Shown: piece after piece, positions 28,829 to 47,486 of the stretch
Layout: each line of letters begins with the position of its first letter
Position numbering within the stretch: position 1 is the first letter of the stretch
IMG/VR virus record: IMGVR_UViG_3300024346_000115
Coordinates: 1-47,827 of that record
Strand: one strand, 5' to 3'
Source of the DNA: a virus
DNA: 47,827 bases
Position numbers and translations under genes: made by a program
Notes under the pieces: generated by a model
What the model was told of the DNA's origin: nothing
What the model saw: only the letters and a program-made list of their open reading frames with translations
The model's database searches: none

Positions 28829-31800
28829 ATGCCATTAGTATCCTATGAAGACGACGATTCGATTGACCTTTTCATTCGTGAACAAGATCGATTAGGTCGT
28901 GCAAATACGCGCCAGCAGAAAACCGAGGAGCGTGCTTCCGCACAGCGAGAAATAGCCAACCTCGAAGATGAGACAAATGAGTCAGGCGATTTTGTTACGG
29001 GCGTCAAAGCTGGTTTCAAGCAAACGCAAGGTTTAGGCGGCGGCGTAAAAGCCCTTGCTGGATCTGTTTTTGGAAACGAGGATTGGGTCCGCGATGGCTT
29101 GGATTACTACAACGAGAAGATGGCTGAAGCAGAGGGTCTTGGTGGTAATGCTACCCGCGTTGAGGACATTGATGGCTTTGGCGATGCTCTTGATTATATG
29201 CAGTACACTCTCGGCACTCTTGTTCCTGACCTTCTTGGCGGGGGCGTTGTCGGATTTGCTGCGAAGGCTGGTGCCAAAAAGGTTGCCAAAGAATCCTTCA
29301 AAGAAGCTATTGATACTCGTGTCCAGCAGTCTGTTGCTGACGGTGCTGTAGAGACCGGGAACAAGATTGCTCTTTCAAAGCTCAGAAAAGAGTATGAGCA
29401 AGAAGCCCTTGGAAAAATACCTAGACGGGCTGCCTTGGTAGGAGCTGGCGCATATAGTGCCGCCCTCAACTCAGGTGAAAACTTTACAGAGATAGAAGCT
29501 GAAACAGGACTCTTAGACCCTGTTGCGGCATTAACAGTAGGTATCGCCCAAGGCGCCCTAGATAACTTCGGCGTGCCCATGAGGGCTTTCAAAAGACTTT
29601 TCCCTGACCGCTCGGCAGAAGGTTTGCGAACAGCAATTGCTGAGCAGATGAATGACAACCGTGGCAACATAAGAAAAATACTAACAGGCACAACTAAGAC
29701 CGCTGGAGTTGAGGGTGGTGTAGAAGCCCTGCAAGAAGTAATGGGCCGCGCCGCGGTGGCTTGGGCAAATGAGAGCTTGCCTGAATCTGAGAAGCAGGAA
29801 TTCCTTGATATTATGGGGGGAGAGAACGCTCAATCCCTGTACCTCAACTCTTTTGTAGCTGGCGCTTTAGGTGGCTCTGTTATTGGAGGCACTGCGGAAA
29901 CGCTAGACGCTGTTAGACCTCAGTTTGATCCAAAAGATTTTGACGATCGCCTAGCCAAGATGGTTGAGGCTAAGCGAGCTGCAAAAAAAGCAGCCGCGGA
30001 AGCAGATAACACCCCCCAAGAAGATAAGATTAAGCTAGGAGATATGCCCCTAGAGCCAGAAGAGCAGACTATCTACTTGGGCAGTCTACCCGGACCTCTA
30101 CAGCAGCAGTTACTTGATGACGGTATAGAGGATGACACTGCGCCGATAGCAGCCGTCCAAGCATCTATCGAGAAGCTAGATGGCATTCAGCAGCAGAAAT
30201 CAAAGGCTGCCCTAGAAAGACAAGGCATTGCTAGCCGTCGCCGTAGAAAGGTTCAGGCTGAAAAAGAGCCCGGCGTGGTTGCGTTTGAGGGGCCGATATT
30301 CACCGTTGCTACACCTCAGTCACTGAAGGAAAAGCAATCGGAGTTAGAGCAACAAACAAAGGAAGGCTCAGAGAAGATTCAGGTGAATGGTGATGACACC
30401 TACACACCAGAGTCTATTTCTTTTTCTGGATTGCTGAAGACCATAACCGGCGCCCGTGGTGGCGACCCTATGATCAACAATAAAAATGAGTCTGAAGATC
30501 CTATAGTTTTGCAGCCTCTAGCTGATCGCTATGAAAACCCTAGAGATCCGTTAGAAGTTCCTGAGCTAGAAGAGACCATGTCCATTTACTTGGATCTATT
30601 GGATCGAGGTGTCCCCCGGCAGCACATAGAATCCGTAACCGGTACGTATGCTATAGAGGGTGACGTAGATCTTCCTGACGACGCAGTTGCTGCATACTTC
30701 CCCCAGTCTGGGGCAGTAGGAATTAACACGCAGCAGCTTACACAAGGGCTGTCAGATGAAGAGGCAGCTCGTGTAAATCGATTCGCAATGGCCCATGAGG
30801 TATGGCATTCAGCCGACAGTGAGCAAGGCTACTCAGATACCCTCCCCGACTTGGCTATGGATTTCGCAGATGTTGATGGAGACGGCTTGCCTGACATGGA
30901 CCTCGGCGATGTTGTCGATGAGATTTATGTTAACTGGGAGAACGGAACCGATCTTGGTAAGCGTTTCGGCTATCCATTTAACTTTCTTGAGGGCATGCTC
31001 AATGACGCAGCTCCTGAAGACCGGCCGGAGATACTTCGGTCAACGCAGCGAGAAGTTTTCGCGCAGCTCGGGGCAATGCTTACAGCTAATCCAAAGCTAC
31101 TTAAAGAAAGCGCTCCAAAGGCGTACAATCTTATCAAGTCACTGCGAGACAACCCAACCCTAACTGCGGAGAACATCACCAGTGAACAGGCGCAAGATCA
31201 AACAGACAGTCCTTCCACCGATGCTACAGCAGTACCGGGACAAGTTCGGGCACCTCCCATCGAGGGAAGCCCAGAAGTTCAAGACGATGGAGGAGCTGGA
31301 CCAGTTAGCGGAGATGGCCTTGAGACGGGGCAAGCCGATCAGGAGCTGGGAGGACAGACCGAACCTGAGGACGGGGACGCTGCTGGACAACTTCTACGGC
31401 AACAAGTAATTGATTTCGTAGCCTCACAAGGTGAGGTTGCCGGCATCTCGTCAATCCAAAAGAACATCCGTAAGGGGTTCAATCCAACCGTTGAGGTAAT
31501 CGACGAGCTGTTAGCCGATGGTTTGCTCGAGGAAAACTTTGCCCCCGACGGTTCGCGTTCATACAAAATCCCAGAGCAGGCAGAACCTCAGCAGCAGACT
31601 GAAGATCCGCAGGCGATAAGACGGCAAGTCCCTATTTCGAATGCTGTAGAGCGGGCAAAAACCAAGTATGCAGAATACTCTACAGCTCTTGAAGAGGAGT
31701 TCTTTGGCAACTTCTGGCCTAAGATCTTGTCTGAAGTTGGTGGGACCGTAGAACCTGAAAAGACCAAGACTGCTGCTAAGCGTGCGGTAAAGGATATTGA

Positions 31801-34800
31801 GGATTGGGTTCGGGAGAACCCCAAGTACAACAATTACTATAGTGAAGACATGGCAGCCGTTCGTCAGTCTCTAGAAGAGTATTATGGAGACGTTAACGAC
31901 GACGATCTTCTATTTTTTCAAGTTGCTAATGGACTGACTTCTCCGGCCACCCAGCTCAAATCCAATGTTGGCGATGCTGTTAGAGTGCTGAACCTGTTTA
32001 AAACAGAAGGGAACTTAGACTCGATAGTTATGGGTGTCAGCGCTAAAGGTAACGCTGTCATCGACTCAACACCTATCTCTATCTCAGGCACTACCGGACC
32101 AACAAAAGCACGGTCCTTGAAGGTGTTTGATCGACTCATTAAAGAAAAAGGTGGTGTACGACAGGCTGTCGATTTCTTGAAAGAAGGCGTCACCCCAAAA
32201 GAATTACAGGCTTTTAACCGTGAGATGGGCTACGTAAGCAACATACCGGGCATACCTGCGATCAAGGCTTTAGTTCAATCAGCTACAGGACAAAATCAAC
32301 TACTCCCGAGATTCTTTATCTTCAACAAGAAGATCGGTGCCTACACGATGAATTTGTCCGGAGATCCACGATATACTACAGTGGACGTTTGGGAATCGCG
32401 GTTCATCAGAAGTTATTTTGATGGACTTTATCAAGAGAACACCGGTCTACCCGCAACTGCTTCTGAAAGTGAGCTGTTCCAAGAGTTCTCAAGCCTGTTT
32501 AAAGAAGAATATGACAGGATAACCGGCGGCAATGCCGACCCATCAACTCTTCAGGCAATGCGTTGGTTCTATATGATCAATGCAGCTAGAGAGTCTGGGT
32601 ATAGAGGAGCTTCAACAAATGAAACAATCTCAGAAATCACCGCCCAGCAACTCCAAAGGCTTGGAGGACGCAGCGAAGCTAGCGGGCGAGCGAGCGATGA
32701 AACGGTTAATGCTGAAAATGAAAGCCAACCGGAACCAGTCGCAGAAGAAGGAACCTCAGGACAAGTAGAAAACCCTGAGGCTATACGTGTCCCCTCGTAC
32801 CGAAGCGAAGACGCCAAAACAATAGCTCTTAGGGATACGGCTCGTGAAAACGAAAACATCCCGTACCATGAAACAATCAGTGAGCTTGAAGAAGACAACC
32901 GCTTCTGGATTGACGAGCTTGATGTTACCCCGCGATTTAAAAGGCTTCTCAAAGCGCTAGATCGAGAAGACTATTTGGGCTTTGACACAGTAGACGAAGC
33001 ATTACGAATGCTGTTCAGGGATCTCGATCCCGTTGAGAACTTTGACCTATCTCCTGCCTTCAAGTCTGCGCTTGGTAGATACATTAACGACGTTAACGGC
33101 TTCACTGCCGAGGACGTTCAGTACATCCGGGTAGATGAACCGTTCCAGCAGGACGTCAGCTTTAATCTTAACGACGATTACACCGTAGATAAGAGTGTGG
33201 ATAGTCGCCTTAAAAGGCTAATGCCAAAAGGGATTACTCGTAAGCTTAGTGATCGCCTTGAAAGATTAAAGGATCTTGAGAATCGATTTGCTCAAGTCCT
33301 TGGTCTTGATCGACTGCCTTCTGCTTTTTCTGCTTACGACAACGAAAACCTCATGCACTCCAAAGCTCAGAAGCAGCTGGATGATTTTGAGGAAGAGCAC
33401 GTCAAGCCAATTGCTGAATTAATTGCCGATGCTGACGTAGATTTAGAGCAGGTTGGTTTGTATCTGTTAGCCAAGCACGCCCCTGAGCGTAACGCCAAGA
33501 TTGCACAGCAAGAGCGTGATCTACGTGAACAGCAAATCCAAGCTCTTGAAGAGCAGATGGATACCGTCGAGGACGAGAGCGATCTAAACCTTATCAAGAA
33601 AAAACTTGATGTCCTTAAAACTGCACCGTTCAAGTATCAAGAAAAAGGTTCAGGACTTACTGATGCAGAAGCAGAGGCAATCATTGAGCTTGCTGAATCA
33701 GAAGGTCAGGCCAATTCTCTTGAAGGGATTGCAGACCGCGTCTACCAGATGCTCACACAAATGCGAGAGAACATGGTTGAGCAGGGTTTGCTCGACAACA
33801 GGACCAGAGAGGACTGGCAGGACACGTATCAATTCTATGTGCCTTTGAAAGGATTTGCCGCATTCCCTGAAGGTCTTGAGATGAAGGGTGGTAATGGGAC
33901 ACAGGGCTTCAGTATCAAAGGCTCTGAAAGCTTCAAGGCCAGAGGTCGGATAACCCTACCCGTCAACCCACTAACGGTATCGATGAAGGATGCCGAAGAA
34001 AAAATTGTGCGCGGGGAAAAAAATAGAACCGCCCAAAAATTACTCAAGATGTTTGAGAAGTTCCAGTCTCCTGATAACTGGAGAGTGTATAACCAGAAGG
34101 TGCGACCACCACGCGATAACAACCCTTCTGAAATGAAAAGCAATCAAGAGCTACGTTCAGAGCGTCGTGCTGACGATGGGCTGCCCCGGTACATAGAGGT
34201 AAAGCGTAGAGGCAAGTCGTTCTTCATTGAAGTCAGAGATCAGGAGCTAAACCGGCAGCTACAAAGTGGCGGTGTTGGCATGTTCAACAACCAAGTCGAC
34301 TTCATGAACAAGGCTCTGACCAACATGCAGAAGTTTCAAAACTTCCGCCGCAATATGCTGATCAACTACAACCCATCGTGGGGTCTTGTTAACCCGATAC
34401 GGGATATACAGACTGGTTTAGCTTTTGCTATTTCAGAGCTTGACGCAAAGGGTGGCCGGCTTGAAGGCAAGTTTGACGGAGTTACTGACCTTGTTGGAAA
34501 AGTAGGCAAGTCATACATGCCCTCTCTCAAGGCGTTCTACAGAGCGCGCAGAGGTTCTGAAGGTAAGACTGAGGAAGCAAGAGAGTACGATCAGTACGCT
34601 AGCGAATACATCGAGGACGGTGCTCCTACTGGCCTTTCTGTCGCAAAGTCGTTAGAAGAGCAGCAGGCCAGATTTGAAACGATCATGGGGCAGTCTGCTA
34701 AGGCAAAAGGCATCAATAAGCTACGGCCTTTCTTTGACTGGGTCGAAGATGCCAACCAGACGACTGAGAATGCTGCCCGGTTATCTACCTATATAGAGGC

Positions 34801-36040
34801 CAGAAAGGCGGGTGTAGAGCGTGCAGATGCCGCAACTCTAGCAAAAGACTTGACGGTTAACTTTAACCGCAAGGGTGAGTATAGCTCCGCAATTGATAGC
34901 TTGTATTTATTCTTCAATGCCGCCGTTCAGGGTAACGTCAACATTATTAAGGCGCTAGCCCGCGGCAAGAAAGACGGAGGCGTTAGCAAGGCTCAGACTG
35001 TGGCAGCAAGCATGGTGATGTTTGGCTTCGCTAGAACATTGGCCAACATCTCAATGGCCGGTGAGGATGACGACGGAGAATCGAACTACGTTGACTACAA
35101 CGAGTATGTGATGAAGACCGCCATGGTGTTCACAGATGGTCGTCAGGGCTATGCAATGCCAATGCCGTACGGCTATGGTCTGTTAGACAACATCGGTCGG
35201 TTCGGTGCAGAGATGGCAATGGGCATCAAGACGCCGGAGCAGGTGTCTGTGGATTTAGCCACATCTGTCGATCATCACTTCAACCCCATGAGTTTGCACG
35301 CAACTGGTGACGATAGAGACCTGATCGAAAGCGCAATCCTAAAAGGCATGTTCTTCCTTAGTCCAGACATTGGTGACATGGCTATCGAGCAGATTGCCAA
35401 CATCAACTTCTTTGGATCTAACGTAACCATTCCTCAAAACCCGCTGATGGTAGAAAGACCTGCGGCATATGCCTCAAAGCGCGGTACAAACGAAGCCGTA
35501 ACCGCAATCACTGAGTTCCTTAATGACATTTCAGGGGGCAGTGAGTATCGCAGCGGCGCTGTGGACCTTAATCCAGAGAGAATCATGCACTTCTACGAGT
35601 TCTTAATGGGTGGCGTAGGTCGATTCTTGGATGACTCGTCTGACACTGTGATGAAGATGGCTTCCGAAGAGCCTGATCTCTTCCCTAAAGACATTCCCAT
35701 ACTGCGTACCTTTGCTCCTATGGCGAGCGAGTACTCAGACAGGGTCACCTTCTACAGTAATCGTGGCGACTACCAGCAGTATAGAAAAGAGTACAAAGAA
35801 TCGACACCAGCTGACCGTAGAAACTTACAGCAACGATTTGGCCCAAGGCTGTATCAGTTCGAGATTACTCACAAACAAATTGAGAAGCAGCTTAGAGACC
35901 TTAGAAAGAGGAAGAAGGCTTTGTACGATGACAAAGTGATTGACTCGATGATGAGGTGGAAAAAGTTGCAAGCTATTGCTGAGAGAGAAGAGCGACTTTA
36001 CGACGAATACAACAAGCGATTCGAGTCGGTAAGACCGTAA
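28829..36040 (+). CDS. Giant polyvalent ejection protein with zincin and LPD38-like domains
   Basis: A 2,403-residue protein, last in the late operon where T7 has gp16. Parts in order: an N-terminal region with three Gly/Ala-rich hydrophobic segments (about 120-150, 200-250, 335-360); linkers; a zinc-protease-like domain with HEVWH at 656-660 and a likely third ligand E742 in REVFAQL; a winged-helix block at about 858-914 resembling FtsK gamma (ISSIQKNIRKGFNPTVEVIDEL); a polyvalent-type domain at about 930-1310; helical linkers; and from about 1848 (NPSWGLVNPIRDIQTG) an LPD38-like domain through LYLFFNAAVQGNVN at 2025. It probably enters the cell with the DNA and carries enzymes that protect or assist it. 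No lytic transglycosylase motif was recognised. Confidence 0.8.
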   Translation: MPLVSYEDDDSIDLFIREQDRLGRANTRQQKTEERASAQREIANLEDETNESGDFVTGVKAGFKQTQGLGGGVKALAGSVFGNEDWVRDGLDYYNEKMAEAEGLGGNATRVEDIDGFGDALDYMQYTLGTLVPDLLGGGVVGFAAKAGAKKVAKESFKEAIDTRVQQSVADGAVETGNKIALSKLRKEYEQEALGKIPRRAALVGAGAYSAALNSGENFTEIEAETGLLDPVAALTVGIAQGALDNFGVPMRAFKRLFPDRSAEGLRTAIAEQMNDNRGNIRKILTGTTKTAGVEGGVEALQEVMGRAAVAWANESLPESEKQEFLDIMGGENAQSLYLNSFVAGALGGSVIGGTAETLDAVRPQFDPKDFDDRLAKMVEAKRAAKKAAAEADNTPQEDKIKLGDMPLEPEEQTIYLGSLPGPLQQQLLDDGIEDDTAPIAAVQASIEKLDGIQQQKSKAALERQGIASRRRRKVQAEKEPGVVAFEGPIFTVATPQSLKEKQSELEQQTKEGSEKIQVNGDDTYTPESISFSGLLKTITGARGGDPMINNKNESEDPIVLQPLADRYENPRDPLEVPELEETMSIYLDLLDRGVPRQHIESVTGTYAIEGDVDLPDDAVAAYFPQSGAVGINTQQLTQGLSDEEAARVNRFAMAHEVWHSADSEQGYSDTLPDLAMDFADVDGDGLPDMDLGDVVDEIYVNWENGTDLGKRFGYPFNFLEGMLNDAAPEDRPEILRSTQREVFAQLGAMLTANPKLLKESAPKAYNLIKSLRDNPTLTAENITSEQAQDQTDSPSTDATAVPGQVRAPPIEGSPEVQDDGGAGPVSGDGLETGQADQELGGQTEPEDGDAAGQLLRQQVIDFVASQGEVAGISSIQKNIRKGFNPTVEVIDELLADGLLEENFAPDGSRSYKIPEQAEPQQQTEDPQAIRRQVPISNAVERAKTKYAEYSTALEEEFFGNFWPKILSEVGGTVEPEKTKTAAKRAVKDIEDWVRENPKYNNYYSEDMAAVRQSLEEYYGDVNDDDLLFFQVANGLTSPATQLKSNVGDAVRVLNLFKTEGNLDSIVMGVSAKGNAVIDSTPISISGTTGPTKARSLKVFDRLIKEKGGVRQAVDFLKEGVTPKELQAFNREMGYVSNIPGIPAIKALVQSATGQNQLLPRFFIFNKKIGAYTMNLSGDPRYTTVDVWESRFIRSYFDGLYQENTGLPATASESELFQEFSSLFKEEYDRITGGNADPSTLQAMRWFYMINAARESGYRGASTNETISEITAQQLQRLGGRSEASGRASDETVNAENESQPEPVAEEGTSGQVENPEAIRVPSYRSEDAKTIALRDTARENENIPYHETISELEEDNRFWIDELDVTPRFKRLLKALDREDYLGFDTVDEALRMLFRDLDPVENFDLSPAFKSALGRYINDVNGFTAEDVQYIRVDEPFQQDVSFNLNDDYTVDKSVDSRLKRLMPKGITRKLSDRLERLKDLENRFAQVLGLDRLPSAFSAYDNENLMHSKAQKQLDDFEEEHVKPIAELIADADVDLEQVGLYLLAKHAPERNAKIAQQERDLREQQIQALEEQMDTVEDESDLNLIKKKLDVLKTAPFKYQEKGSGLTDAEAEAIIELAESEGQANSLEGIADRVYQMLTQMRENMVEQGLLDNRTREDWQDTYQFYVPLKGFAAFPEGLEMKGGNGTQGFSIKGSESFKARGRITLPVNPLTVSMKDAEEKIVRGEKNRTAQKLLKMFEKFQSPDNWRVYNQKVRPPRDNNPSEMKSNQELRSERRADDGLPRYIEVKRRGKSFFIEVRDQELNRQLQSGGVGMFNNQVDFMNKALTNMQKFQNFRRNMLINYNPSWGLVNPIRDIQTGLAFAISELDAKGGRLEGKFDGVTDLVGKVGKSYMPSLKAFYRARRGSEGKTEEAREYDQYASEYIEDGAPTGLSVAKSLEEQQARFETIMGQSAKAKGINKLRPFFDWVEDANQTTENAARLSTYIEARKAGVERADAATLAKDLTVNFNRKGEYSSAIDSLYLFFNAAVQGNVNIIKALARGKKDGGVSKAQTVAASMVMFGFARTLANISMAGEDDDGESNYVDYNEYVMKTAMVFTDGRQGYAMPMPYGYGLLDNIGRFGAEMAMGIKTPEQVSVDLATSVDHHFNPMSLHATGDDRDLIESAILKGMFFLSPDIGDMAIEQIANINFFGSNVTIPQNPLMVERPAAYASKRGTNEAVTAITEFLNDISGGSEYRSGAVDLNPERIMHFYEFLMGGVGRFLDDSSDTVMKMASEEPDLFPKDIPILRTFAPMASEYSDRVTFYSNRGDYQQYRKEYKESTPADRRNLQQRFGPRLYQFEITHKQIEKQLRDLRKRKKALYDDKVIDSMMRWKKLQAIAEREERLYDEYNKRFESVRP

Positions 36041-36051: not shown

Positions 36052-36117
36052 ATTAGAGAAATCGTTGCGGCACGAGGCTTCTCTAAGTTATTGATTTATA
36101 AGGAAACCCGTAGGTTT

Positions 36118-36165
36118 ACCTTGCCAAGGTACAGGTCGCCAGTTCGAATCTGGTTTCCCGCTCCA
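36118..36165 (+). other. attP core: 3' half of a tRNA-Gly(GCC) gene
   Basis: From the anticodon stem-loop (loop TTGCCAA at 36121-36127, anticodon GCC at 36123-36125) through the T arm (stem 36138-36142 with 36150-36154, loop TTCGAAT) to the acceptor strand TTCCCGC, discriminator T and CCA (36163-36165) the sequence reads as a bacterial tRNA-Gly. The 5' half is absent: upstream bases do not give GCGGGAA or a D arm. Phages that integrate into tRNA genes carry this 3' part so that the gene is restored. The integrase is adjacent, so this is the attachment site. Confidence 0.85.
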
Positions 36166-36272: not shown

Positions 36273-36284
36273 AAGGTTCAACTC
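36273..36284 (+). repeat. AAGGTTCAACTC direct repeat, right copy (possible integrase arm site)
   Basis: Exact second copy of the 12-mer at 36040-36051. It overlaps the 3' end of the integrase gene on the other strand. Candidate arm-type integrase site. Confidence 0.45.
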
Positions 36285-37165
36285 GCTCTCAACTTGCCCT
36301 CAATGCGACTTGCAGCGTCCAACTTATGGAAGTTGCTCATGTGGGTATAGCGCTGTAACGAATTAAGCGAACGCCATCCACCAATCTCCATCAGCTCACG
36401 AGTGTCAGTCTGAGCTTGGAAGTGCCACGTCGCAAACGTGTGTCGCATTGTATGAAAGCTTGTGCCCTTAGGTAGTCCGGCTAAGTCCACAGCCTTCCGC
36501 CAAGTCTTATTACAGACCGCGCTACGACTGAACGGCTTGCCGTTATCCTGAACAAAGACGCCGTCAATCTTGCCTCGCAAAAATGGTCTGCGCTTTACCA
36601 ATTCCTCTTGAGCACGCTCACGTCTTTTTAAGATGTCGCGTGCATCACCATTCAGAGGAATGAGTGCCGGCTTACCATTCTTTGTTTCGGTCGACTCAAT
36701 CGACATGTACCTACCGTCCTTGCTTATCTGAGACCAGCGTAGTGTCCGTACGTTGTTGTTGCGTTGTCCGCAACTCAAGGCAAACTCCACCATGTCCGCT
36801 CTCAGCGGGTCTAGCCATCTCAATAAAGATCTAACTTGACCCGGGTCTAAGTGCAACTCTCTCATCGCTTCCGGCAATGTCTCGATTTTTGGCACACCCT
36901 CAATGACTTCAAGCTTGTCCCGTGCGTAGCACAGTGTCAGCCGTAAGTACTTGAGGTACGTGTTCACAGTCGAGTTACTAAGACCGTGCTCGTAAAGCAG
37001 CTCCTCTTGCAGATCGTTAATGTCTTTAGCCCGGATAGTAGAAATGTTTCTATTACCCCAGCGCTCGACCATCTGCTTGATCGCTAGTTTTGCCGCACGA
37101 CTCTTATCATTACCTCTGCGTGTTTTTATTTTTAAATACCGCTCTGCTACATCTTTGAACTTCAT
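36278..37165 (-). CDS. int: Tyrosine integrase
   Basis: A 295-residue site-specific recombinase. An N-terminal SAM-like core-binding domain (about 1-95, ISTIRAKDINDLQEELLYEHGLSNSTVNTYLKYLR region) is followed by the catalytic domain with R135 (CGQRNNNVRTLRW), K162 (TKNGKPALIPL), H238-x-x-R241 (FHTMRHTFATW), W264 (GGWRS) and the nucleophile Y273 (RYTHMS). The start at 37165 has GGAGA 6-10 nt upstream, while the ATG at 37195 would add ten residues. It should integrate the phage at the host tRNA-Gly(GCC) gene whose 3' half is just downstream. No separate excisionase is recognised. Confidence 0.93.
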   Translation of the reverse strand: MKFKDVAERYLKIKTRRGNDKSRAAKLAIKQMVERWGNRNISTIRAKDINDLQEELLYEHGLSNSTVNTYLKYLRLTLCYARDKLEVIEGVPKIETLPEAMRELHLDPGQVRSLLRWLDPLRADMVEFALSCGQRNNNVRTLRWSQISKDGRYMSIESTETKNGKPALIPLNGDARDILKRRERAQEELVKRRPFLRGKIDGVFVQDNGKPFSRSAVCNKTWRKAVDLAGLPKGTSFHTMRHTFATWHFQAQTDTRELMEIGGWRSLNSLQRYTHMSNFHKLDAASRIEGKLRAS

Positions 37166-37172
37166 ATGACTC

Positions 37173-37179
37173 TCCGTGT
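37173..37179 (-). promoter_or_regulatory. ACACGGA leader motif at the integrase start
   Basis: On the minus strand ACACGGA ends 7 nt before the integrase ATG. GGAG here is also the Shine-Dalgarno core. The same heptamer occurs 7-8 nt before three other genes (40058, 40696, 40855). It is close to the CsrA-binding core ACANGGA. Confidence 0.5.
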
Positions 37180-37212
37180 GTATGAAGCCCCGCACCGCAG
37201 CTATACCTTATC

Positions 37213-37238
37213 AAAAAAAGGGGGGCGTTTCCGCCCCC
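37213..37238 (-). terminator. Leftward rho-independent terminator
   Basis: Read leftward, GGGGGCG (37238-37232) pairs with CGCCCCC (37227-37221) around GAAA, and U7 follows (37219-37213; A-run on the plus strand). It ends the recombination operon (40058-37331) before the integrase, which must therefore have its own promoter or depend on read-through. Confidence 0.85.
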
Positions 37239-37305
37239 AATCACAAGGAGCCACCTTTCGGGGCGGCACGTTTTTTAGTCACTGGTGTGCCAAGCCAGTC
37301 AGGAA

Positions 37306-37328
37306 CTCGGGTACCTATCAGACCCGAG
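37306..37328. repeat. 7-bp inverted repeat after the recombination operon
   Basis: CTCGGGT (37306-37312) and ACCCGAG (37322-37328) can pair around a 9-nt loop. It begins two bases beyond the last stop codon of the leftward operon. There is no U-tract. It could stabilise the mRNA 3' end or be an operator. Confidence 0.5.
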
Positions 37329-37330
37329 GA

Positions 37331-37570
37331 CTAATTAACAACCTCGCCTTCTGCCACTTCCTCTGCCTCTTGGGGGAGGGGTTCCGGCAGAAGCTTTTTA
37401 GCATCAGCCAAGGTTGAGTCTGCACCGGCTCGAGCTGCCTCAAGTAAAGGTGTCAGCATCTGGATTGCTTGGTTAGCTTGTTGAACGAGTGCCAGCATCT
37501 GGCGAGGTCGCTCTCCAATCTCTTGAAAGTTGTACGACTTACCGTCGATACTAATTGTTTGATCACTCAT
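37331..37570 (-). CDS. Small DUF6447-like protein
   Basis: A 79-residue protein starting MSDQTISIDGKSYNFQEIGERPRQMLALVQQ, the pattern of small phage proteins assigned to DUF6447 (T-I-DGK-x-Y then a helix with x-A-x-x-QL). The rest is an acidic helix with Pro/Glu-rich end (LPEPLPQEAEEVAEGE). It overlaps the gene upstream by 4 bp (ATGA). Function unknown. Confidence 0.65.
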   Translation of the reverse strand: MSDQTISIDGKSYNFQEIGERPRQMLALVQQANQAIQMLTPLLEAARAGADSTLADAKKLLPEPLPQEAEEVAEGEVVN

Positions 37571-37965
37571 CTTTTATGCTTACTCCTAGCGTTGTTTCGT
37601 AAAAGTTCATATGACCTTGGCGCTTGCACCAAGATCCTTGCTTGTGGGACGACCCTATTCTTGCTGAGGTCACCTCGCCCACAAATCTCACAGAAGTCAT
37701 CAGGCGTGTACCAGTACTCCTGAATTCCTACGAGAGCTATTGAGACTGTGGGGCTGACCTCTAGGATCTCACCACCAACAGTCATAAGTTGTTCAACACA
37801 GCCGTCTTTGGAATACACATTTAAGAGACAATCTTGCTTGCCCTTGTGGTCCCGGACGCGTCGAACCCATATTTTGTGCTCGAACGTAGTCTCTGGACTT
37901 TGGGGGTCCATGTTCTTTCCCCCGTATAAGACGCTATCGACAGCTCGCGTTAGCCGTAAACCCAT
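37567..37965 (-). CDS. CsrA-like RNA-binding protein with two insertions (candidate)
   Basis: A 132-residue protein. Residues 2-16 (GLRLTRAVDSVLYGG) resemble CsrA strand 1 (LILTRRVGETLMIGD). Residues about 72-82 (PTVSIALVGIQ) match strand 2. Residues 108-123 (QARILVQAPRSYELLR) match QVRIGVNAPKEVSVHR, including the AP turn and the RNA-binding arginine (R44 in E. coli CsrA, R123 here). About 55 residues are inserted after strand 1, and about 25 with a CxxC (92-95) between strands 2 and 3. CsrA proteins bind GGA motifs at ribosome sites and control translation. The match is by eye; an unrelated beta protein is possible. AAAGG precedes the ATG. Confidence 0.5.
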   Translation of the reverse strand: MGLRLTRAVDSVLYGGKNMDPQSPETTFEHKIWVRRVRDHKGKQDCLLNVYSKDGCVEQLMTVGGEILEVSPTVSIALVGIQEYWYTPDDFCEICGRGDLSKNRVVPQARILVQAPRSYELLRNNARSKHKR

Positions 37966-37975
37966 ATCAATACCT

Positions 37976-38368
37976 TTAAAACGGAATGTCTTCCTCGGGA
38001 AAGTCAGCTTGCTGTGGTGCAGGCTGTGGGGCTGGCTTGTTTGCAGGTTTGTTGGGTAACCAGAACTCGACGTTCAGCTGAGAGACTTCGCCATCGCGCT
38101 TCTGTTCAGCAACTTCTAGGTTGTATCTAAAGGCGTCACCGCCATTGATATCGAGTGCTCCCTGCAACTTATCGATCATGTCCTGATCGATCTTCAGCCA
38201 ACCGTCGAAGCTTGGAATCTTCAGCGCTTGCTGCTCTTTACTTAGATCTGTAAACCAGCCGTACTGCTTGAGCTTGTTGTACTTCTCAAGTTTTTTCTCT
38301 CGATCTAGCGGGTAAAGGCGCCCCTTACCAGCATTAATTGCCTCGAAGGCAGTAGGTTTATTTTGCAT
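37976..38368 (-). CDS. SSB-like single-strand DNA-binding protein
   Basis: A 130-residue protein. The C-terminus has a Pro/Ala/Gln linker followed by DFPEEDIPF, nearly the same as the acidic tip of bacterial SSB (DDDIPF) that recruits partner proteins. The N-terminal 95 residues (FEAINAGKGRLYPLDREKK, WFTDLSKEQQALKIPSFDGWLK, FRYNLEVAEQKRDGE) are not a canonical OB fold by eye and may be divergent. It is coupled to the exonuclease gene (TAATG) and lies in the same operon as an annealing protein, so binding ssDNA during recombination is the likely role. Confidence 0.7.
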   Translation of the reverse strand: MQNKPTAFEAINAGKGRLYPLDREKKLEKYNKLKQYGWFTDLSKEQQALKIPSFDGWLKIDQDMIDKLQGALDINGGDAFRYNLEVAEQKRDGEVSQLNVEFWLPNKPANKPAPQPAPQQADFPEEDIPF

Positions 38369-39390
38369 TAGTCATCTCCGATTGATTTGATTGATGATTG
38401 CAGTGAATTACTCTGCCGACGCCATTCGTCGATAGAGCTATCTTTCTCTAGCAGGGCTTGTTCCCCGCCAAGAAATTCAAATGCCCCGCGGAAATCCACC
38501 GGAGGAGTTTTCTTGATGACCTGTATAGACACGAATCCGTTGGTGATTGACCGCTCGTACTTTTTAACTAGCTCTTTCTTGAGTGCGTCACGGCTAGCCT
38601 TGAGGTGGTCTAGGTCTTGAAGTGCTTGATAGTTCATGACCTCAATCTCATTGATCTTGCCTTGAATGTCGGCAAGCTCAGACATCTGGTCATCTTGGAT
38701 TTCATCGTAGTCAGGCTTCAGCGGATCAAGGTGCTTTTGAGCCCGTTCAGGATCGGCAGCTTCAGCTTGAATGAAGTCATACCAAGCCTTGAACAAATCA
38801 AGTCTAGTGACGGACCCCTTTTTTGGTGTTGGCAACAGCCTTCCTTCAAGCTCCTCGTCCAACCAATCCCAGTTGCGCTCTACTCTATCGATGTGCCATT
38901 GGCCTTCAGCCTGTGGATCGGTCGCTAAGTAGCACATGAAGTCACACCAATCTAGGTCACAGACCTCCATGACCATGTGGCACTGCCACAAATACATGAT
39001 TCGCTTTTCGTCAAAGACCGAGTAAGGCGCCTTGGTCCACTTAGGATAGGGGCACTTGAACTCGGCACAGCCTTCAATACCAATCAGACCATCAGGCGAT
39101 GCGGCTAGGAACGAGTGCTTTGAATGTACAACCAAGCCAGTCTCATCAACTTTGTACCGTTGAATTTGCTCAAGCTTAACCCGGGCATAGTCCTCCATCA
39201 TGGAGCCATGCTCTACTGCCGCGTTGGTTTGAAACTCAGACTCGGCGCCAAGGATAGCCCTTACCTCTTGGCGGACAACTTCCGCGACCTTCATGTAAGG
39301 GTGCTTGTTCTCATAAGCAGCGCAGATACTTGCTTTGATCAGGCCAGCTCTGGCTTTTAGCCACCCTTCAGAACCTTGGGGGTGCATCAT
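38368..39390 (-). CDS. YqaJ/lambda-type recombination exonuclease
   Basis: A 340-residue nuclease. GSEGWLKARAGLIKAS (residues 6-21) is the typical YqaJ start. The PD-(D/E)XK site is D100 (ASPDGLIG) with E110-x-K112 (EFKC), and E66 upstream in GSMMEDYAR. The C-terminal 100 residues form a coiled coil and a small basic end. It digests one strand from double-strand ends so that the annealing protein can act. The start at 39390 gives ATGA overlap with the gene before and has GGGGTGG 7 nt upstream; a GTG three codons earlier is less likely. Confidence 0.88.
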   Translation of the reverse strand: MMHPQGSEGWLKARAGLIKASICAAYENKHPYMKVAEVVRQEVRAILGAESEFQTNAAVEHGSMMEDYARVKLEQIQRYKVDETGLVVHSKHSFLAASPDGLIGIEGCAEFKCPYPKWTKAPYSVFDEKRIMYLWQCHMVMEVCDLDWCDFMCYLATDPQAEGQWHIDRVERNWDWLDEELEGRLLPTPKKGSVTRLDLFKAWYDFIQAEAADPERAQKHLDPLKPDYDEIQDDQMSELADIQGKINEIEVMNYQALQDLDHLKASRDALKKELVKKYERSITNGFVSIQVIKKTPPVDFRGAFEFLGGEQALLEKDSSIDEWRRQSNSLQSSIKSIGDD

Positions 39391-40058
39391 GCTGACCACC
39401 CCTTCTTGCTACAGACCTCTTCCCACCGATTGAGACGGTAGTCTTCCAGCCCGCGAGACTTCAGAGCCTTAACATATCGATCAAACATTTTTTGACCGGC
39501 AGTTTTTGTTCGCGCCTTTTGGATTTCTTCGAGGCTGGTCATCCAAAGCCTATCAATGCTGTTCCTGACTTTTGAGTCCGCTTCTGTGTCGTCCGTGGGT
39601 AAAACATCCCCAGAGGACTGGTCAGTGACTTCTTCTACAACCCCCGGCTCTTCTGCCGTTGGCTTCTTGAGCCACAGTTGATGGCCAAGGCCGAACTCAG
39701 CCATCGCCTTAACGCGACACCTTTGCTTGGCGGTGTTTATTTGAAAGCTGTTTGGGTTGCGTACAACATCACCGCCGTCTCTCACCATGTAAGAGGTGAT
39801 CTGGGTGTGCCCTAAAACCGTCATGCGACACCTAACCTCGCAGGTACCGTCATTGAAGTAATGAACTTCCCGGCTGTCGGGGTCTTCGGTAAATTCCCAT
39901 GTGTATTCTGGGAAGTTTTCCATCATGAGTACGTGCGCGTTCATCCAAGACACAGCGGGAAACTTTTCCCCGCTTATCGTTTCGGACTCAGTGCAGTGTG
40001 GTTTTATGTTTACAGCAGAAAGGGTTGCCCATATGTGGGCTTTAGAAGTCTTGTCCAT
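39387..40058 (-). CDS. DUF1071-type single-strand annealing protein
   Basis: A 223-residue protein with the DUF1071 (Sak-related, Rad52-like) pattern: FPAVSWMNAHVLMMENFPEYTWEF at 33-56, EVHYFNDGTCEVRCRMTVLG, then GGDVVRNPNSFQINTAKQRCRVKAMAEFGLGHQLW at about 94-128, with the conserved QRC-x-KA-x-A-x-FGLG. The acidic linker and helical C-terminus are phage-specific. It anneals complementary strands exposed by the exonuclease encoded next. It heads the operon and has a near-consensus promoter upstream (40098-40125) and an ACACGGA leader. Confidence 0.85.
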   Translation of the reverse strand: MDKTSKAHIWATLSAVNIKPHCTESETISGEKFPAVSWMNAHVLMMENFPEYTWEFTEDPDSREVHYFNDGTCEVRCRMTVLGHTQITSYMVRDGGDVVRNPNSFQINTAKQRCRVKAMAEFGLGHQLWLKKPTAEEPGVVEEVTDQSSGDVLPTDDTEADSKVRNSIDRLWMTSLEEIQKARTKTAGQKMFDRYVKALKSRGLEDYRLNRWEEVCSKKGWSA

Positions 40059-40066
40059 GTCGCATA

Positions 40067-40073
40067 TCCGTGT
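40067..40073 (-). promoter_or_regulatory. ACACGGA leader motif at the annealing-protein start
   Basis: On the minus strand ACACGGA ends 8 nt before ATG 40058 and is followed by T, giving ACACGGAT. The GGA is the only Shine-Dalgarno-like element for this gene. Confidence 0.5.
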
Positions 40074-40097
40074 AGTAAATCAATAGATTCACCACAA

Positions 40098-40125
40098 AGT
40101 TTACGCTTGCAAATGAGTTTGTCAA
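40098..40125 (-). promoter_or_regulatory. Leftward promoter of the recombination operon
   Basis: On the minus strand a perfect -35 TTGACA (40125-40120) and -10 TAAACT (40103-40098, 4 of 6) are 16 bp apart. The -35 overlaps the TGA stop of the 48-residue gene. Transcription would start near 40090, about 30 nt before the annealing-protein ATG. Confidence 0.65.
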
Positions 40126-40268
40126 TTACTAGATGGATTTGGACTGTCTTTTCCTATTAATTTTGCGACCACATCGTCACATTCTTTTACATGTATCGAT
40201 GGATTATCTTCAATAAATTTCCGGATTAGTTTGAATAAAGCCTCGTCCGTGAGTTTCTCTTTTCCCAT
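40122..40268 (-). CDS. 48-residue hypothetical protein
   Basis: A short ORF, MGKEKLTDEALFKLIRKFIEDN at the start, then VKECDDVVAKLIGKD and a Ser/Asn end, stopping at TGA 40124-40122. AAGGA lies about 9 nt before the ATG. Helical and charged, in the size range of small phage regulators (Cox/Xis or Cro-like helpers), but no helix-turn-helix is evident. It follows the repressor gene by 20 bp and is probably co-transcribed with it. Confidence 0.6.
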   Translation of the reverse strand: MGKEKLTDEALFKLIRKFIEDNPSIHVKECDDVVAKLIGKDSPNPSSN

Positions 40269-40288
40269 TCTTCCGATCCTTGGTCTGA

Positions 40289-40696
40289 TTATTTAGCCAA
40301 AAAAGTCTTTAGATTTTCCATAAACGACTCAAGCGATTGCTCGTCAGACTCGCCCATTAGGACGAGAGCGGCCATCTGCTTGGCGCTCAAATCGATATTG
40401 TATTTATTTTCAAAGTTTTTACACCTGTGAATGAGTTCAGATAGTCTAGATTCTGAGATGAAAGCGCCTCTTGACTTTCCGGTCGACCATTCGTAGAAGT
40501 CTAAACCGAATTCATCTGCGAAATTTATTCCCGTTTGGATATTTTTTGGAAGGCTACCCTTCAGCCAAGCATCCGCGGTTGCGTTACTACAGCCGGTCTT
40601 TCTAGCAATTTCAGAGGCTCGCCCCCAAGCTGCGACTCCGCGTTTTGTTAGTTGTTCGTTTAGGTATTCCGATCGTTTCTGATTGTCATAGTGCAT
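40289..40696 (-). CDS. HTH transcriptional regulator, probable lysogeny repressor
   Basis: A 135-residue protein. The helix-turn-helix is at about 25-50 (GRASEIARKTGCSNATADAWLKG), followed by SLPKNIQTGINFADEFGLDFYEWSTGK, a continuation seen in phage Cro/C1-type regulators. The C-terminal part is helical (MAALVLMGESDEQSLESFMENLK). There is no S24 protease domain, so SOS self-cleavage is not expected and induction must work in another way. Divergent from the replication initiator across a 158-bp region with dyads, it is the best candidate for the lysogeny repressor. Confidence 0.75.
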   Translation of the reverse strand: MHYDNQKRSEYLNEQLTKRGVAAWGRASEIARKTGCSNATADAWLKGSLPKNIQTGINFADEFGLDFYEWSTGKSRGAFISESRLSELIHRCKNFENKYNIDLSAKQMAALVLMGESDEQSLESFMENLKTFLAK

Positions 40697-40704
40697 TTAG
40701 CTCA

Positions 40705-40711
40705 TCCGTGT
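40705..40711 (-). promoter_or_regulatory. ACACGGA leader motif at the repressor start
   Basis: On the minus strand ACACGGATG ends in the ribosome site, with the heptamer 8 nt before ATG 40696. ACACGGATG differs by one base from the CsrA SELEX core ACARGGATG. A potential hairpin (40714-40739) lies directly 5' of it. Confidence 0.5.
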
Positions 40712-40747
40712 GAAGTTTTTTTAGTCTACTCGAAAAACTCTGTTAAA

Positions 40748-40791
40748 TGCGAATTATTCTCATCAACTCAGTTATGATAATTAAATTTGCA
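40748..40791. promoter_or_regulatory. Imperfect dyad, candidate operator
   Basis: TGCGAATTATTCTCAT (40748-40763) and the reverse complement of ATGATAATTAAATTTGCA (40774-40791) match except for two substitutions and a 2-bp gap. The right half-site overlaps the -35 of the rightward promoter, so a bound repressor would block initiator transcription. Confidence 0.5.
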
Positions 40792-40815
40792 CTATCAAAA
40801 GAATTTTCTTATCGT
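40787..40815 (+). promoter_or_regulatory. Rightward promoter of the replication operon
   Basis: TTGCAC (40787-40792) and TATCGT (40810-40815) are separated by exactly 17 bp. Each hexamer matches consensus only in part, which suits a promoter under repressor control. The start would be near 40822, some 33 nt before the initiator ATG. Confidence 0.5.
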
Positions 40816-40840
40816 TACATGCGCTTTACAGCGAACCACC

Positions 40841-40847
40841 ACACGGA
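40841..40847 (+). promoter_or_regulatory. ACACGGA leader motif at the initiator start
   Basis: ACACGGA ends 7 nt before ATG 40855; GGAG is the Shine-Dalgarno core. Fourth copy of the shared leader motif and the only one on the plus strand. Confidence 0.5.
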
Positions 40848-40854
40848 GTAGTTA

Positions 40855-41523
40855 ATGATTTTCAAACCTGCGGCTCACAAATCTCGGCACTACACCAAGC
40901 TGCCAAACGATTTGCTGCGTGACCCAGACCTAACCCCGGAAGCCATAGGCGTTCTAGCTTACCTTCTTACGCACGTTGACAACTGGCGTGTCACTCAGCG
41001 TCAGCTTAGTAACCACTTCAATTGCAGCCCCGGCCGGATTAAGAATATCGCCGATACGTTAGAAACCTGTGGGTACATTCGCAGAGTTAGGTATATAGAT
41101 CAGGGGAAGCACGTATTTGACTGGGAGGTATATGACGAAAAGCAAGATGTCGAAAACCGACATGTCGAAAAACAAGATGTCGAAAATCAGCACCTAAGAA
41201 TAAACATAGCTAAAGAAGAAACATCTACTAAGAAGAAACATTGGAAAGAAGAACTATCAGACTCCTGCCCTGAAGGCATTCCTAAACTGACATGGCGTGA
41301 GTGGTGGGAGTACAAGGCTGGCACTCGCAAGCCGGGTAAGTCGACGATCACTAGGCAGACCCATGACTTCGAGACAATGGCCAAAAACGGATTCGATTTA
41401 TCAGAGCTAATCCCCTTCGCTATCAGTCGAGGATGGCAACGTATTGGGAGTCCAGACTGGGACTCGCTCAATCGATTTAAAAATAAACAAAGAACAGATG
41501 ATTATCTTGCTGAGGTTAAGTAA
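40855..41523 (+). CDS. Replication initiator (lambda O-like) with winged helix
   Basis: A 222-residue protein. Residues about 12-80 form a winged helix of the phage replication-organiser type (YTKLPNDLLRDPDLTPEAIGVLAYLL, VTQRQLSNHFNCSPGRIKNIADTLETCGYI). Residues 93-112 are four 5-residue repeats (YDEKQ, DVENR, HVEKQ, DVENQ) encoded by tandem DNA repeats. The C-terminal part (WREWWEYKAGTRKPGK, FDLSELIPFAISRGWQ) resembles the helicase-contact region of replication proteins. It should bind iterons inside its own gene and load the helicase encoded next. Stop and next start overlap (TAATG). Confidence 0.78.
   Translation: MIFKPAAHKSRHYTKLPNDLLRDPDLTPEAIGVLAYLLTHVDNWRVTQRQLSNHFNCSPGRIKNIADTLETCGYIRRVRYIDQGKHVFDWEVYDEKQDVENRHVEKQDVENQHLRINIAKEETSTKKKHWKEELSDSCPEGIPKLTWREWWEYKAGTRKPGKSTITRQTHDFETMAKNGFDLSELIPFAISRGWQRIGSPDWDSLNRFKNKQRTDDYLAEVK
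41131..41190 (+). repeat. Four tandem 15-bp iterons, candidate replication origin
   Basis: Four consecutive 15-mers: TATGACGAAAAGCAA, GATGTCGAAAACCGA, CATGTCGAAAAACAA and GATGTCGAAAATCAG; the core is ATG(T/A)CGAAAA. An A-rich purine stretch follows (about 41191-41256). Lambda has four iterons beside an AT-rich region inside gene O, so by analogy this is the likely origin. Confidence 0.7.
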
Positions 41524-43364
41524 TGGATATACGTGTGCTCAAATCAGAGCTTGGGAGGTATGCCCATCAAATATGCCAAGAGTTGTTTCCCGAAGGGATC
41601 ATAGAGTCGGGGTGTTACAAGGTAGGCAGCATCGAGGGGGACAAGGGACGGAGTTTTTCGTGCTACCTGCATGGCGATAAGGCTGGGAAGTGGATTGACT
41701 TTGCAACTGGCGATGGTGGCGACATGCTTGATCTCATCCAACATGGTCGAGGCATGTCACTTACTGAGGCCATGGAGTGGTCAGCTAAGCGCTACGGTAT
41801 ACGGGATTACAGCCCCGCCCCAAAAATTTCGCAGTCGGCAAAGAAAAAATACTCCACCCCTGCCCCACCATCTAGAACCAGTAACAGCCTGATACATGAG
41901 TACATGCAGAAGCGTGGGTTCAGGGAGATGGGTGAGGTGTGCTTCCGGTACAAGATCTATGAGACGGAGACCCGTGGTGGGCTTGATGTCGTGTTCCCGT
42001 TCCATGACGTGTCGGGTGACCTTGTATTCCTGAAGACAAAGCCGATGAATCATGATGGCAATCCGTCTACTCAGAAAGACCTCCGGCCGATACTGTTTGG
42101 TTGGCAGGCTATGCCGGCAAGTGCTCGCAAGGTGTGGATCACTGAGGGCGAGTGGGACGCGATTGCATGTGGTGAGCTTGGATTTCCAGCGTTGAGCGTG
42201 CCAATGGGCGGGGGGAAAGGCGCCAAGCAAACCAATTGGATCGCCAACGAATACGAGAACCTTGCCCGGTTTGAAGAGATCATCATTGCCACTGACATGG
42301 ATGAGCAAGGAGATCTAGCTGCCCAAGAGATCATGAAGCGTTTAGGCGACCGGTGCTACCGGGTGAAGCTCCCAACAAAAGACATCAACGAGCTACTTCA
42401 AAAGCAGGGTTACGAGCAGTCTCGGCTGGTTCTCGAGGCGGCGTATGAAGAGGCCCGATGGCAAGATCCTGACACACTGCGCTCTGTCATGGAGTTTGAA
42501 AAAGACATCGATGATTACTTCGATAAGTCGATCAATGACACGCAGGGGTTTGGCTCGGGGTGGCACAAAATAGACGAGGAAGACATACGGTTTCGGCCGG
42601 GCGAGATGTGGGGTATTACCGGCATCAACGGTCATGGCAAGAGCATGTGGCTAGGTCAGCTATGCCTGAATGCTGTTGAACAAGGGCAGAAGGTATTAAT
42701 CGCTTCATTCGAGATGAACCCAAAACAGACTCTTGGTCGCATGATGAAGCAGGCGGGAGGCAGCTCCGAGCCACCGAAGGACTACCGCCAAAAGCTGATG
42801 GAATGGATGGGTGCAAACCTTTGGCTTTACGTCGACAACATAACGCCTAAGCCTGAAGACCTGATGAAGTGTTTCGAGTATGCGTACCGCCGCTACGGTG
42901 TTTCGGTGTTCGTCATTGACTCACTGACAAACATGGTTAGGCAGGACGACTTCGAGGGTCAGCAGAAATTTGTCGAGAAGGTCGTGAACTTCAAGATGAC
43001 TACCGGCGCCACTGTGTTTTTGGTCACGCACTCCCGGAAGGGCGAGGACGAGCACAAAGCCCCGAACAAGTACGACGTCAAAGGTAGCGGATCGATTACC
43101 GATCTTGCCGATGGGTTTATGTCGTTGTGGAAAAACAAGCGAAAGGTCGAGCACCTCGAGCAGTGCCGAGTGTTAGGTGAAGAGCCAGACGAAAAGTTTA
43201 CCAAGCAGTGGGACGTCTACCTCGAGATTCTGAAGAACCGTAACGGTGGATACGAGGGCAAGGTCGGTTTCGAGTTTGACAATCGCACCTGTCAGTACCT
43301 CGAGCGCCGATCAGGCCGGCCAAAGTATTACATCAAGTACTCCAAGGAGAATCCAAATGGATAA
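41523..43364 (+). CDS. Primase-helicase (T7 gp4/Twinkle-like)
   Basis: A 613-residue replicative protein. Residues about 20-95 form a degenerate CHC2-like region (SFSCYLHGDKAGKWIDFATGDGGDMLDLI) without a full zinc site. The Toprim domain has E208/E210 (ITEGEWDAIAC) and D258-x-D260 (ATDMDEQGD). The RecA-like helicase has Walker A at 367-374 (GINGHGKS) and Walker B with D466 (VFVIDSL), then H-motif FLVTHSRKGEDE. It unwinds the fork and may make primers, though without clear zinc ligands primer synthesis is uncertain. It lies directly after the initiator and probably is loaded by it. Confidence 0.9.
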   Translation: MDIRVLKSELGRYAHQICQELFPEGIIESGCYKVGSIEGDKGRSFSCYLHGDKAGKWIDFATGDGGDMLDLIQHGRGMSLTEAMEWSAKRYGIRDYSPAPKISQSAKKKYSTPAPPSRTSNSLIHEYMQKRGFREMGEVCFRYKIYETETRGGLDVVFPFHDVSGDLVFLKTKPMNHDGNPSTQKDLRPILFGWQAMPASARKVWITEGEWDAIACGELGFPALSVPMGGGKGAKQTNWIANEYENLARFEEIIIATDMDEQGDLAAQEIMKRLGDRCYRVKLPTKDINELLQKQGYEQSRLVLEAAYEEARWQDPDTLRSVMEFEKDIDDYFDKSINDTQGFGSGWHKIDEEDIRFRPGEMWGITGINGHGKSMWLGQLCLNAVEQGQKVLIASFEMNPKQTLGRMMKQAGGSSEPPKDYRQKLMEWMGANLWLYVDNITPKPEDLMKCFEYAYRRYGVSVFVIDSLTNMVRQDDFEGQQKFVEKVVNFKMTTGATVFLVTHSRKGEDEHKAPNKYDVKGSGSITDLADGFMSLWKNKRKVEHLEQCRVLGEEPDEKFTKQWDVYLEILKNRNGGYEGKVGFEFDNRTCQYLERRSGRPKYYIKYSKENPNG

Positions 43365-46552: not shown

Positions 46553-46733
46553 TTGCTTTTTGCCTCTTCTCGTTAAGCTTTCGGACCAGCTTGGGCAAGT
46601 CCTCAACTTGGAACTCGTCGAACGTAAACTCGACGCATAGGATGGTGACTACCTCGTGCATCAGGTAGCCACCGTTTAACAGGTCAGTAGCCCTGTCGAT
46701 CACTGTGTATCGGTAAGCTGGGCTGATCACCAC
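46542..46733 (-). CDS. Hypothetical protein
   Basis: A 63-residue protein starting at GTG 46733, with GGGAGG 6 nt upstream. Sequence VISPAYRYTVIDRATDLLNGGYLMHEVVTILCVEFTFDEFQVEDLPKLV is split here into a short strand and two helices. It overlaps the genes before and after (7 and 11 bp). No family recognised. Confidence 0.6.
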   Translation of the reverse strand: MVISPAYRYTVIDRATDLLNGGYLMHEVVTILCVEFTFDEFQVEDLPKLVRKLNEKRQKANAL

Positions 46734-47469: not shown

Positions 47470-47486
47470 GACTGTGCCTCCATGTC

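Follow-up and report, generated by a model that had tools for sequence, protein, structure and literature searches.

A CsrA-like gene and ACANGGA sites at translation starts in a group of phages: a probable phage-encoded translational repressor

Introduction

Why do four genes of one virus carry the same seven letters just before their start codons, and is the protein that reads these letters encoded among them? The question is raised by the virus record IMGVR_UViG_3300024346_000115, of which positions 1 to 47,827 (nucleotides, nt) are analysed here and called the window. The genes encode a tyrosine integrase, a single-strand annealing protein, a putative repressor and a replication initiator, the letters are ACACGGA, and in the same region lies a gene for a protein of 132 amino acids (aa) that is a remote relative of CsrA. 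We consider it probable that this CsrA-like protein is a translational repressor of early and lifestyle genes of the phage, which reads ACANGGA and acts in the manner of RegA of phage T4. The genes and sites on which the argument turns are the following.

36278-37165, minus strand: tyrosine integrase (int), 295 aa (PF00589, E 1e-26; phrog_1, E 9e-48)
37173-37179, minus strand: ACACGGA before the integrase ATG, 7 nt between GGA and ATG
37567-37965, minus strand: CsrA-like, a proposed translational regulator of 132 aa whose insert carries CxxC
37976-38368, minus strand: protein with C-terminal EEDIPF, which we take to be SSB-like, directly upstream of the CsrA-like gene
39387-40058, minus strand: Sak-type single-strand annealing protein, 223 aa, heading the gene run with the CsrA-like gene (PF06378, E 3e-15)
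40054-40060, minus strand: ACATGGA over the annealing-protein start codon, the second ACANGGA site of this gene
40067-40073, minus strand: ACACGGA before the annealing-protein ATG, spacing 8 nt
40289-40696, minus strand: putative repressor, 135 aa, helix-turn-helix-like (phrog_8, E 8e-4, weak)
40705-40711, minus strand: ACACGGA before the repressor ATG, spacing 8 nt
40841-40847, plus strand: ACACGGA before the initiator ATG, spacing 7 nt
40855-41523, plus strand: replication initiator or helicase loader, 222 aa (PF13730, E 4e-7; phrog_186, E 9e-15)
47479-47485, minus strand: ACATGGA, 9 nt before the ATG of gene 47164-47469

Sites in the Window

The original prediction, made from the letters of the window, had placed the four copies of ACACGGA in sense orientation 7-8 nt before the start codons, and coordinates, orientation and spacing (7, 8, 8 and 7 nt) all proved exact. 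An excess of the word over the window as a whole is not there: five copies are seen and 55 of 100 shuffles reach five. Enrichment by total count (5 versus 4.77 expected) was dropped as an argument. The fifth copy, at 15878, has no start codon after it. What is unusual is the placement, the count being ordinary. The pattern ACACGGAN{4,10}ATG has four matches in the window and the reversed control pattern none, and ACAC is the top 4-mer preceding GGA at sites where GGA is followed by ATG (4 of 49 such sites at open reading frames of at least 80 codons; the runner-up has 2).

When the fourth letter is left free, the window holds 19 ACANGGA words, six of which sit 4-15 nt 5' of the starts of open reading frames of at least 60 codons. 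These six belong to the four named genes, to the gene at 47164-47469 and to a position inside the large gene 28829-36040. The annealing-protein gene holds both forms of the site, one upstream (40067-40073) and one over the start codon (40054-40060); the latter, the ACATGGA at 47479-47485 and the conservation among relatives had been overlooked before. From its leader, the gene at 47164-47469 is a possible fifth member of the motif-bearing set. It and its neighbour at 46727-47167 (both minus strand) have near-duplicate leaders, GACATGGAGGCACAGTC-ATG and GCATGGAGGTGCAGTC-ATG. The earlier statement that the other genes use plain GGAGG sites holds in part, but many of them carry GGA with varied flanks.

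Sites in the Leaders of Relatives

Relatives were fetched by scans with the annealing protein, the initiator, the repressor, the integrase and the 132-aa protein, and then with two family alignments; the loci range from nearly identical to very divergent, and the last scan gave the best 80 of 158 relatives. Homologues were collected by profile, their starts were set by profile position, and they were clustered by shared 3-mers, the longest member representing each cluster; homologues were dropped if no start lay near that of the profile or if less than 40 nt of upstream sequence was present. Nine early families were taken from all loci up to L254, the late and right-end families from a smaller set in which each family has 1 to 14 clusters. 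The clusters do not represent independent events on a tree, and relatedness makes the p-values given here overstated. The upstream motif had been named beforehand, whereas the start-codon form was spotted after the fact.

The presence of the motif in the leaders of relatives had been set beforehand as a check on the prediction, and the motif is kept. Within 26 nt of the start, on its upstream side, ACANGGA is found in 7 of 30 clusters of int, 4 of 18 of the SSB-like gene, 4 of 22 of the annealing gene, 14 of 38 of the repressor and 19 of 27 of the initiator, together 48/135 for these five families versus 2/241 for other genes (p 5e-22). One of the two exceptions is among 101 clusters of other early genes (CsrA-like, YqaJ, primase, 37331 gene); the other, among 140 late and right-end clusters, is the window's own 47164 gene, the very gene flagged above as a possible further member. 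ACATGGA over the start codon occurs in 19 of 22 annealing, 10 of 38 repressor and 2 of 30 int clusters (31/135 versus 0/241), and either form in 75/135 versus 2/241 clusters (Fisher p 1e-38, overstated for the same reason). The leader of the SSB-like gene has AATCGGA in the window and ACA[CT]GGA in homologues of some other clades.

The letters around GGA tell the same families apart. In the five families NGGA is most often preceded by ACA (49, followed by TCA with 11), a trinucleotide outside the six commonest in both other gene groups, and where the second codon is GAN, AC precedes the ATG in 31 of 47 clusters of the five families versus 0 of 23 of the others. The fourth letter is A in 13 cases, C in 14, T in 20 and G in 1. 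It is also the position that varies most often within clusters (9/32), while at positions 3, 5, 6 and 7 no variation was seen among the near-matches to which this test was limited. The word across the family is ACANGGA with N largely free, a stronger likeness to the CsrA core than had been stated originally. A first view of the leaders showed ACACGGA, ACATGGA or CCACGGA in every one of 24 distinct initiator rows, whose identity goes down to about 26%, the distance to the ATG being mostly 5 to 15 nt; in later clades ACAAGGA is also present and a few initiators are without the word. Over all sites with GGA before ATG, ACANGGA ranks first in the family (154/1657, a figure that counts many orthologues of the same early genes) and eighth of 64 in four outgroup phages (10/383), which have a homologous primase and no CsrA or CsrA-like profile match at E <= 1.

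These counts bear on the alternative that ACANGGA is a mere style of ribosome-binding site in this phage lineage, with no regulator behind it. The spacing is 7-9 nt in 44 of 69 distinct ACA[CT]GGA sites, which puts GGA at Shine-Dalgarno distance, and GGA by itself is more frequent there too (122/135 clusters of the five families versus 72/101 and 79/140), both as that explanation would have it. However, the ACATGGA sites over the start codon cannot pair with 16S rRNA as a Shine-Dalgarno sequence, which disfavours a pure ribosome-site style; the spacing of the upstream sites reaches 12-15 nt in several initiators; and the neighbouring genes of the same phages are without the motif in all but the one cluster mentioned. 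Nor is ACACGGA before ATG enriched in one metagenome-assembled genome (MAG), which may not be that of the host (13 versus 19 for the reversed control), a test of host style that is qualified by the 33 versus 16 found for ACATGGA before ATG in this same single MAG. We regard this explanation as improbable.

The CsrA-Like Protein

The original prediction had called the 132-aa protein CsrA-like, a view now backed by a remote relationship in profile comparison, by an arginine in register with R44 of CsrA and by predicted models whose best viral match is a 'Carbon storage regulator'. There are 29 distinct homologues of 129-134 aa, where a CsrA subunit has about 60. Invariant in 29/29 are M1, L3, R4, R7, G15, G16, R35, C92, C95, Q108, P116, Y119 and R123; in L176, a homologue found later, R4 is replaced by K (LKITR). 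R123 aligns with R44 in beta strand 5 of CsrA. Passages of a review (PMC7652899) name two residues on which RNA binding critically depends, L4 in beta 1 and R44 in beta 5, contributed by opposing monomers; the consensus given there from systematic evolution of ligands by exponential enrichment is RUACARGGAUGU, with ACA and GGA fully conserved.

PF02599, the CsrA family, is the Pfam family that most members match (11/29 at E <= 1, best 7.5e-4), and a six-frame search with it at E <= 10 gave matches in open frames of 130-142 aa (best E 2e-4), which came from 15 of 37 virus records; matches in phage records reach at most 15.3 bits versus a cut-off of 27. For comparison with CsrA, an alignment was made of 16 of the 28 CsrA proteins found, taken from genomes; further alignments hold 8 of 15 annealing-protein clusters and 11 of the 29 CsrA-like proteins. 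With hhalign, residues 63-126 fall on CsrA 7-47 at a probability of 87%, around a 23-residue insert with the CxxC motif, and the C-terminal part alone gives 92%. The scores are 36.4 for the whole and 37.2 for the C-terminal part, versus 20.9 and 17.8 for the best of 60 column shuffles. The N-terminal LR[ILV][TSA]R of the 29 homologues falls on LILTR of CsrA (CsrA 2-21), where 2/60 shuffles score as well. Direct search of PDB sequences with the window protein gave no match, and the 29-row profile found two thymidine kinases at E near 1 and no CsrA there. The proteins encoded at 37567, 37331 and 37976 have no good family match in the Pfam or PHROGs searches. As to T4 RegA, neither the window protein nor the 29 homologues have a RegA-named Pfam match at E <= 1, and no RegA name is among the PHROGs matches listed, many of which are unnamed.

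The window protein and a distant member were modelled with AlphaFold2; both models have a predicted local distance difference test (pLDDT) score of 89.2, and the best match of both among viral models is A0A6J5RUQ1, annotated 'Carbon storage regulator' (window protein: E 3.9e-4, template modelling (TM) scores 0.53/0.60; distant member: E 6.3e-5, TM 0.62/0.71, root-mean-square deviation 2.9). In the PDB fold search lipocalins come out on top (best E 6e-3), and in a second PDB fold comparison the best Z is 8.8 over 83 residues for CcsBA of H. hepaticus, near that tool's range of no clear match.

The single-chain models have eight strands in the first and nine in the second. The strand order of the nine-stranded model would suit a fused CsrA dimer that has lost one strand and kept a single RNA site, to which LRxTR at the N terminus and PxxYxxxR at the C terminus might contribute one strand each. 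The fused-dimer idea is drawn only from the predicted strand order and the invariant residues, because a sequence repeat was undetected: an internal duplication, sought by profile, was given up when 22 of 60 shuffles did as well. The CxxC (residues 92-95, inside the insert) is present in 29/29 as one pair per chain, and metal binding would therefore need a dimer or further ligands.

Gene Linkage and the Host CsrA

The CsrA-like gene is found in 164 of 185 loci holding the annealing gene (loci, not genomes, are counted, the window included, with several per contig). The other 21 loci lack it: 20 of them break off no more than about 2 kb downstream; the remaining one, L039, is a distant outlier with 3.2 kb downstream, no CsrA-like gene and neither site form at its annealing gene. 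A related phage group without the gene, which would be a natural knockout, was not found among the best 80 of 158 relatives. In the window the gene directly follows the SSB-like gene within the run headed by the annealing gene.

By blastn (E <= 1e-5, 50,697 phage records) the DNA of the region matches only Pseudomonas phage AF (two records, 3% of the query, 69.6% identity). Among the same named phages the CsrA-like protein has no significant homologue (best E 0.05) and the annealing protein one weak relative at E <= 1e-5. The genome collection gave one relative, on an 8.7-kb contig of a gammaproteobacterial MAG.

The main rival to the preferred reading is that the host's own CsrA/RsmA reads ACANGGA, that the phage senses the physiology of its host in this way, and that the phage protein is a competitor or modulator. 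ACANGGA is also the consensus of a host CsrA; 30 of 40 genomes of the phylum of the lone collection match, which may not be the host's phylum, have CsrA above the cut-off, and the MAG with that match carries two copies. CsrA controls prophage activation in Serratia, according to passages of a review (PMC7366521). Yet the phage keeps a CsrA-like gene of its own in the loci counted above, the rest being mostly cut short, and it is unlikely that a phage would bear the cost of such a gene were the host protein sufficient by itself. This rival is unlikely in our judgement, though it deserves more weight than the other two.

Leaders as DNA and as RNA

The original prediction also had the four genes at the heads of their transcripts. 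The annealing gene and the repressor are each preceded by promoter-like matches, and int by a terminator-like one, which makes this plausible, but promoter-like matches are no more frequent in the region than in shuffles (5 versus a mean of 5.9); terminator-like matches number 8 versus a mean of 5.4. The two elements next to site-bearing genes are:

37221-37238, minus strand: terminator-like hairpin between the recombination genes and int
40098-40125, minus strand: promoter-like TTGACA-16-TAAACT upstream of the annealing gene, a consensus match only

Such matches close upstream of some of the genes would be expected if the motif were a DNA element, an operator or part of a promoter near transcription starts. 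But in the four window genes it is always in sense orientation and placed relative to the ATG or containing it, it is not palindromic, and in the 40-nt initiator leaders no constant distance to a promoter is seen by eye. We consider a DNA element very improbable.

As RNA, and judged against shuffles, the annealing-gene leaders fold much better (a mean z of -3.04 over 15 clusters) and the int leaders somewhat better (-1.29, 22 clusters); the remaining leader groups have means from -0.48 to 0.44, the late genes -0.07 (108). In the window the values are -2.35 for annealing, -0.42 for the repressor, 0.10 for the initiator and 0.18 for int, and the motif of the annealing leader lies just 3' of the hairpin. 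In relatives a hairpin around the Shine-Dalgarno sequence of the annealing gene often persists with a stem sequence that differs between clades, and it is likely that this leader is a structured regulatory one. Hairpins at the start site are strong in the annealing leaders of L021, L024, L026, L066 and other loci.

Proposed Mechanism

CsrA sites that overlap a Shine-Dalgarno sequence usually lead to repression. In the mechanism that we propose, the divergent, enlarged CsrA-like protein would recognise ACANGGA in the initiation regions of the integrase, SSB-like, annealing, repressor and initiator messages; most likely, by sitting on the Shine-Dalgarno GGA or on the start codon, it would keep the 30S subunit off and repress translation. 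That the protein binds RNA is part of the proposal, and repression is the outcome we infer, although activation may take its place. The protein may also limit its own synthesis, because its gene sits in the run headed by the site-bearing annealing gene, with which it would be co-transcribed. Build-up of the protein would then shut down the genes for integration, recombination and replication initiation jointly, a circuit of timing and dosage.

A wider claim is more tentative, and we place it somewhat short of even chances: that there are temperate phages with a dedicated single-chain CsrA as translational master regulator, perhaps a fused dimer with one RNA site, in which the choice between lysis and lysogeny and the onset of replication are set post-transcriptionally with feedback through the operon. 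That one site would possibly consist of the first beta strand of the first half and the last strand of the second half.

Several observations weigh against a CsrA-like repressor encoded by the phage. On the side of the protein, no member reaches the Pfam cut-off for PF02599, and the window protein on its own matches CsrA neither in Pfam nor in PHROGs (E up to 1). The PHROGs family 'CsrA-like regulator' is matched by only 2/29 (E 0.096). The six-frame search with PF02599 at E <= 10 is silent in the window yet positive in 9 of 14 control genomes, the N-terminal half aligns weakly with CsrA (score 13.5, equalled by 2/60 shuffles), and no CsrA chain is among the PDB fold matches listed, CsrA being a swapped dimer and the models compared single chains. 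On the side of the sites, neither form is present in 60 of 135 clusters of the five families, the leaders of the CsrA-like gene itself hold ACANGGA in just 1/30 clusters, and the large relative G035 has no enrichment over its whole length (2/91 sites, rank 21). In the window's four leaders the motif lies in no confidently predicted hairpin loop; classical CsrA sites usually sit in such loops.

Further Genes and Features

Three further genes of the region belong to the picture.

37331-37570, minus strand: conserved 79-aa gene with homologues in relatives, without noteworthy family match
38368-39399, minus strand: YqaJ-type exonuclease, second gene of the run, motif-free (PF09588, E 2e-15)
41523-43364, plus strand: primase-helicase after the initiator, motif-free (phrog_239, E 1e-102)

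The 79-aa gene shares 4 nt with the end of the CsrA-like gene and occurs in relatives in 64 distinct leader/protein variants; its product is a possible partner or antagonist of the CsrA-like protein. A 48-aa open reading frame (40122-40268, minus strand) lies between the repressor and annealing genes. Beside int, at 36100-36165, a stretch resembling the 3' end of a tRNA was spotted by eye, which is probably the attP core; ARAGORN found no whole tRNA there.

Comparison with Known Systems

The phage protein resembles CsrA/RsmA (PF02599) in its core profile (CsrA 7 to 47) and in the segment AP...R44, and ribosome-binding sites carry the target word ACANGGA in both cases; the phage protein differs by its length, the CxxC insert, extra predicted strands and scores below the Pfam cut-off. 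The closest predicted fold, A0A6J5RUQ1 from an uncultured Caudovirales phage (TM 0.53-0.71), is likewise a single chain of similar length (114 aa), but sequence identity is only 10-13% and its name is a database annotation only.

CsrA-type genes on mobile elements are known. Passages of PMC7366521, a review of 2020, list csrA alleles in 30 of 2517 phage genomes, found by PSI-BLAST with E. coli CsrA, and state that loss-of-function tests are still required; RsmQ is encoded on a plasmid (PMC9928087). Unlike these, the gene described here is divergent, occurs throughout a phage group and comes with a set of phage leaders in cis. A phage CsrA with a phage regulon of its own was not found reported in the open-access literature searched, which does not prove its absence; fold and target word are known, while no description of the enlarged single chain or of a regulon inside the phage turned up there. 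The gene described here comes with predicted targets inside the phage genome, so that what such an allele does for its phage can be tested directly on one protein and four short RNAs.

Phage T4 is strictly lytic, whereas the phage considered here has an integrase and a repressor. T4 RegA, a protein of 122 aa, competes with the ribosome at about 30 mRNA initiation regions, and its sites overlap the AUG or lie just 5' of it (passages of PMC3014915). The CsrA-like protein, in the role proposed from sequence, would likewise be a small phage protein acting at translation initiation regions, with a different fold and a different target sequence. If this is true, it is the CsrA-fold counterpart to T4 RegA, and integration, repression and replication of the phage are under one translational regulator.

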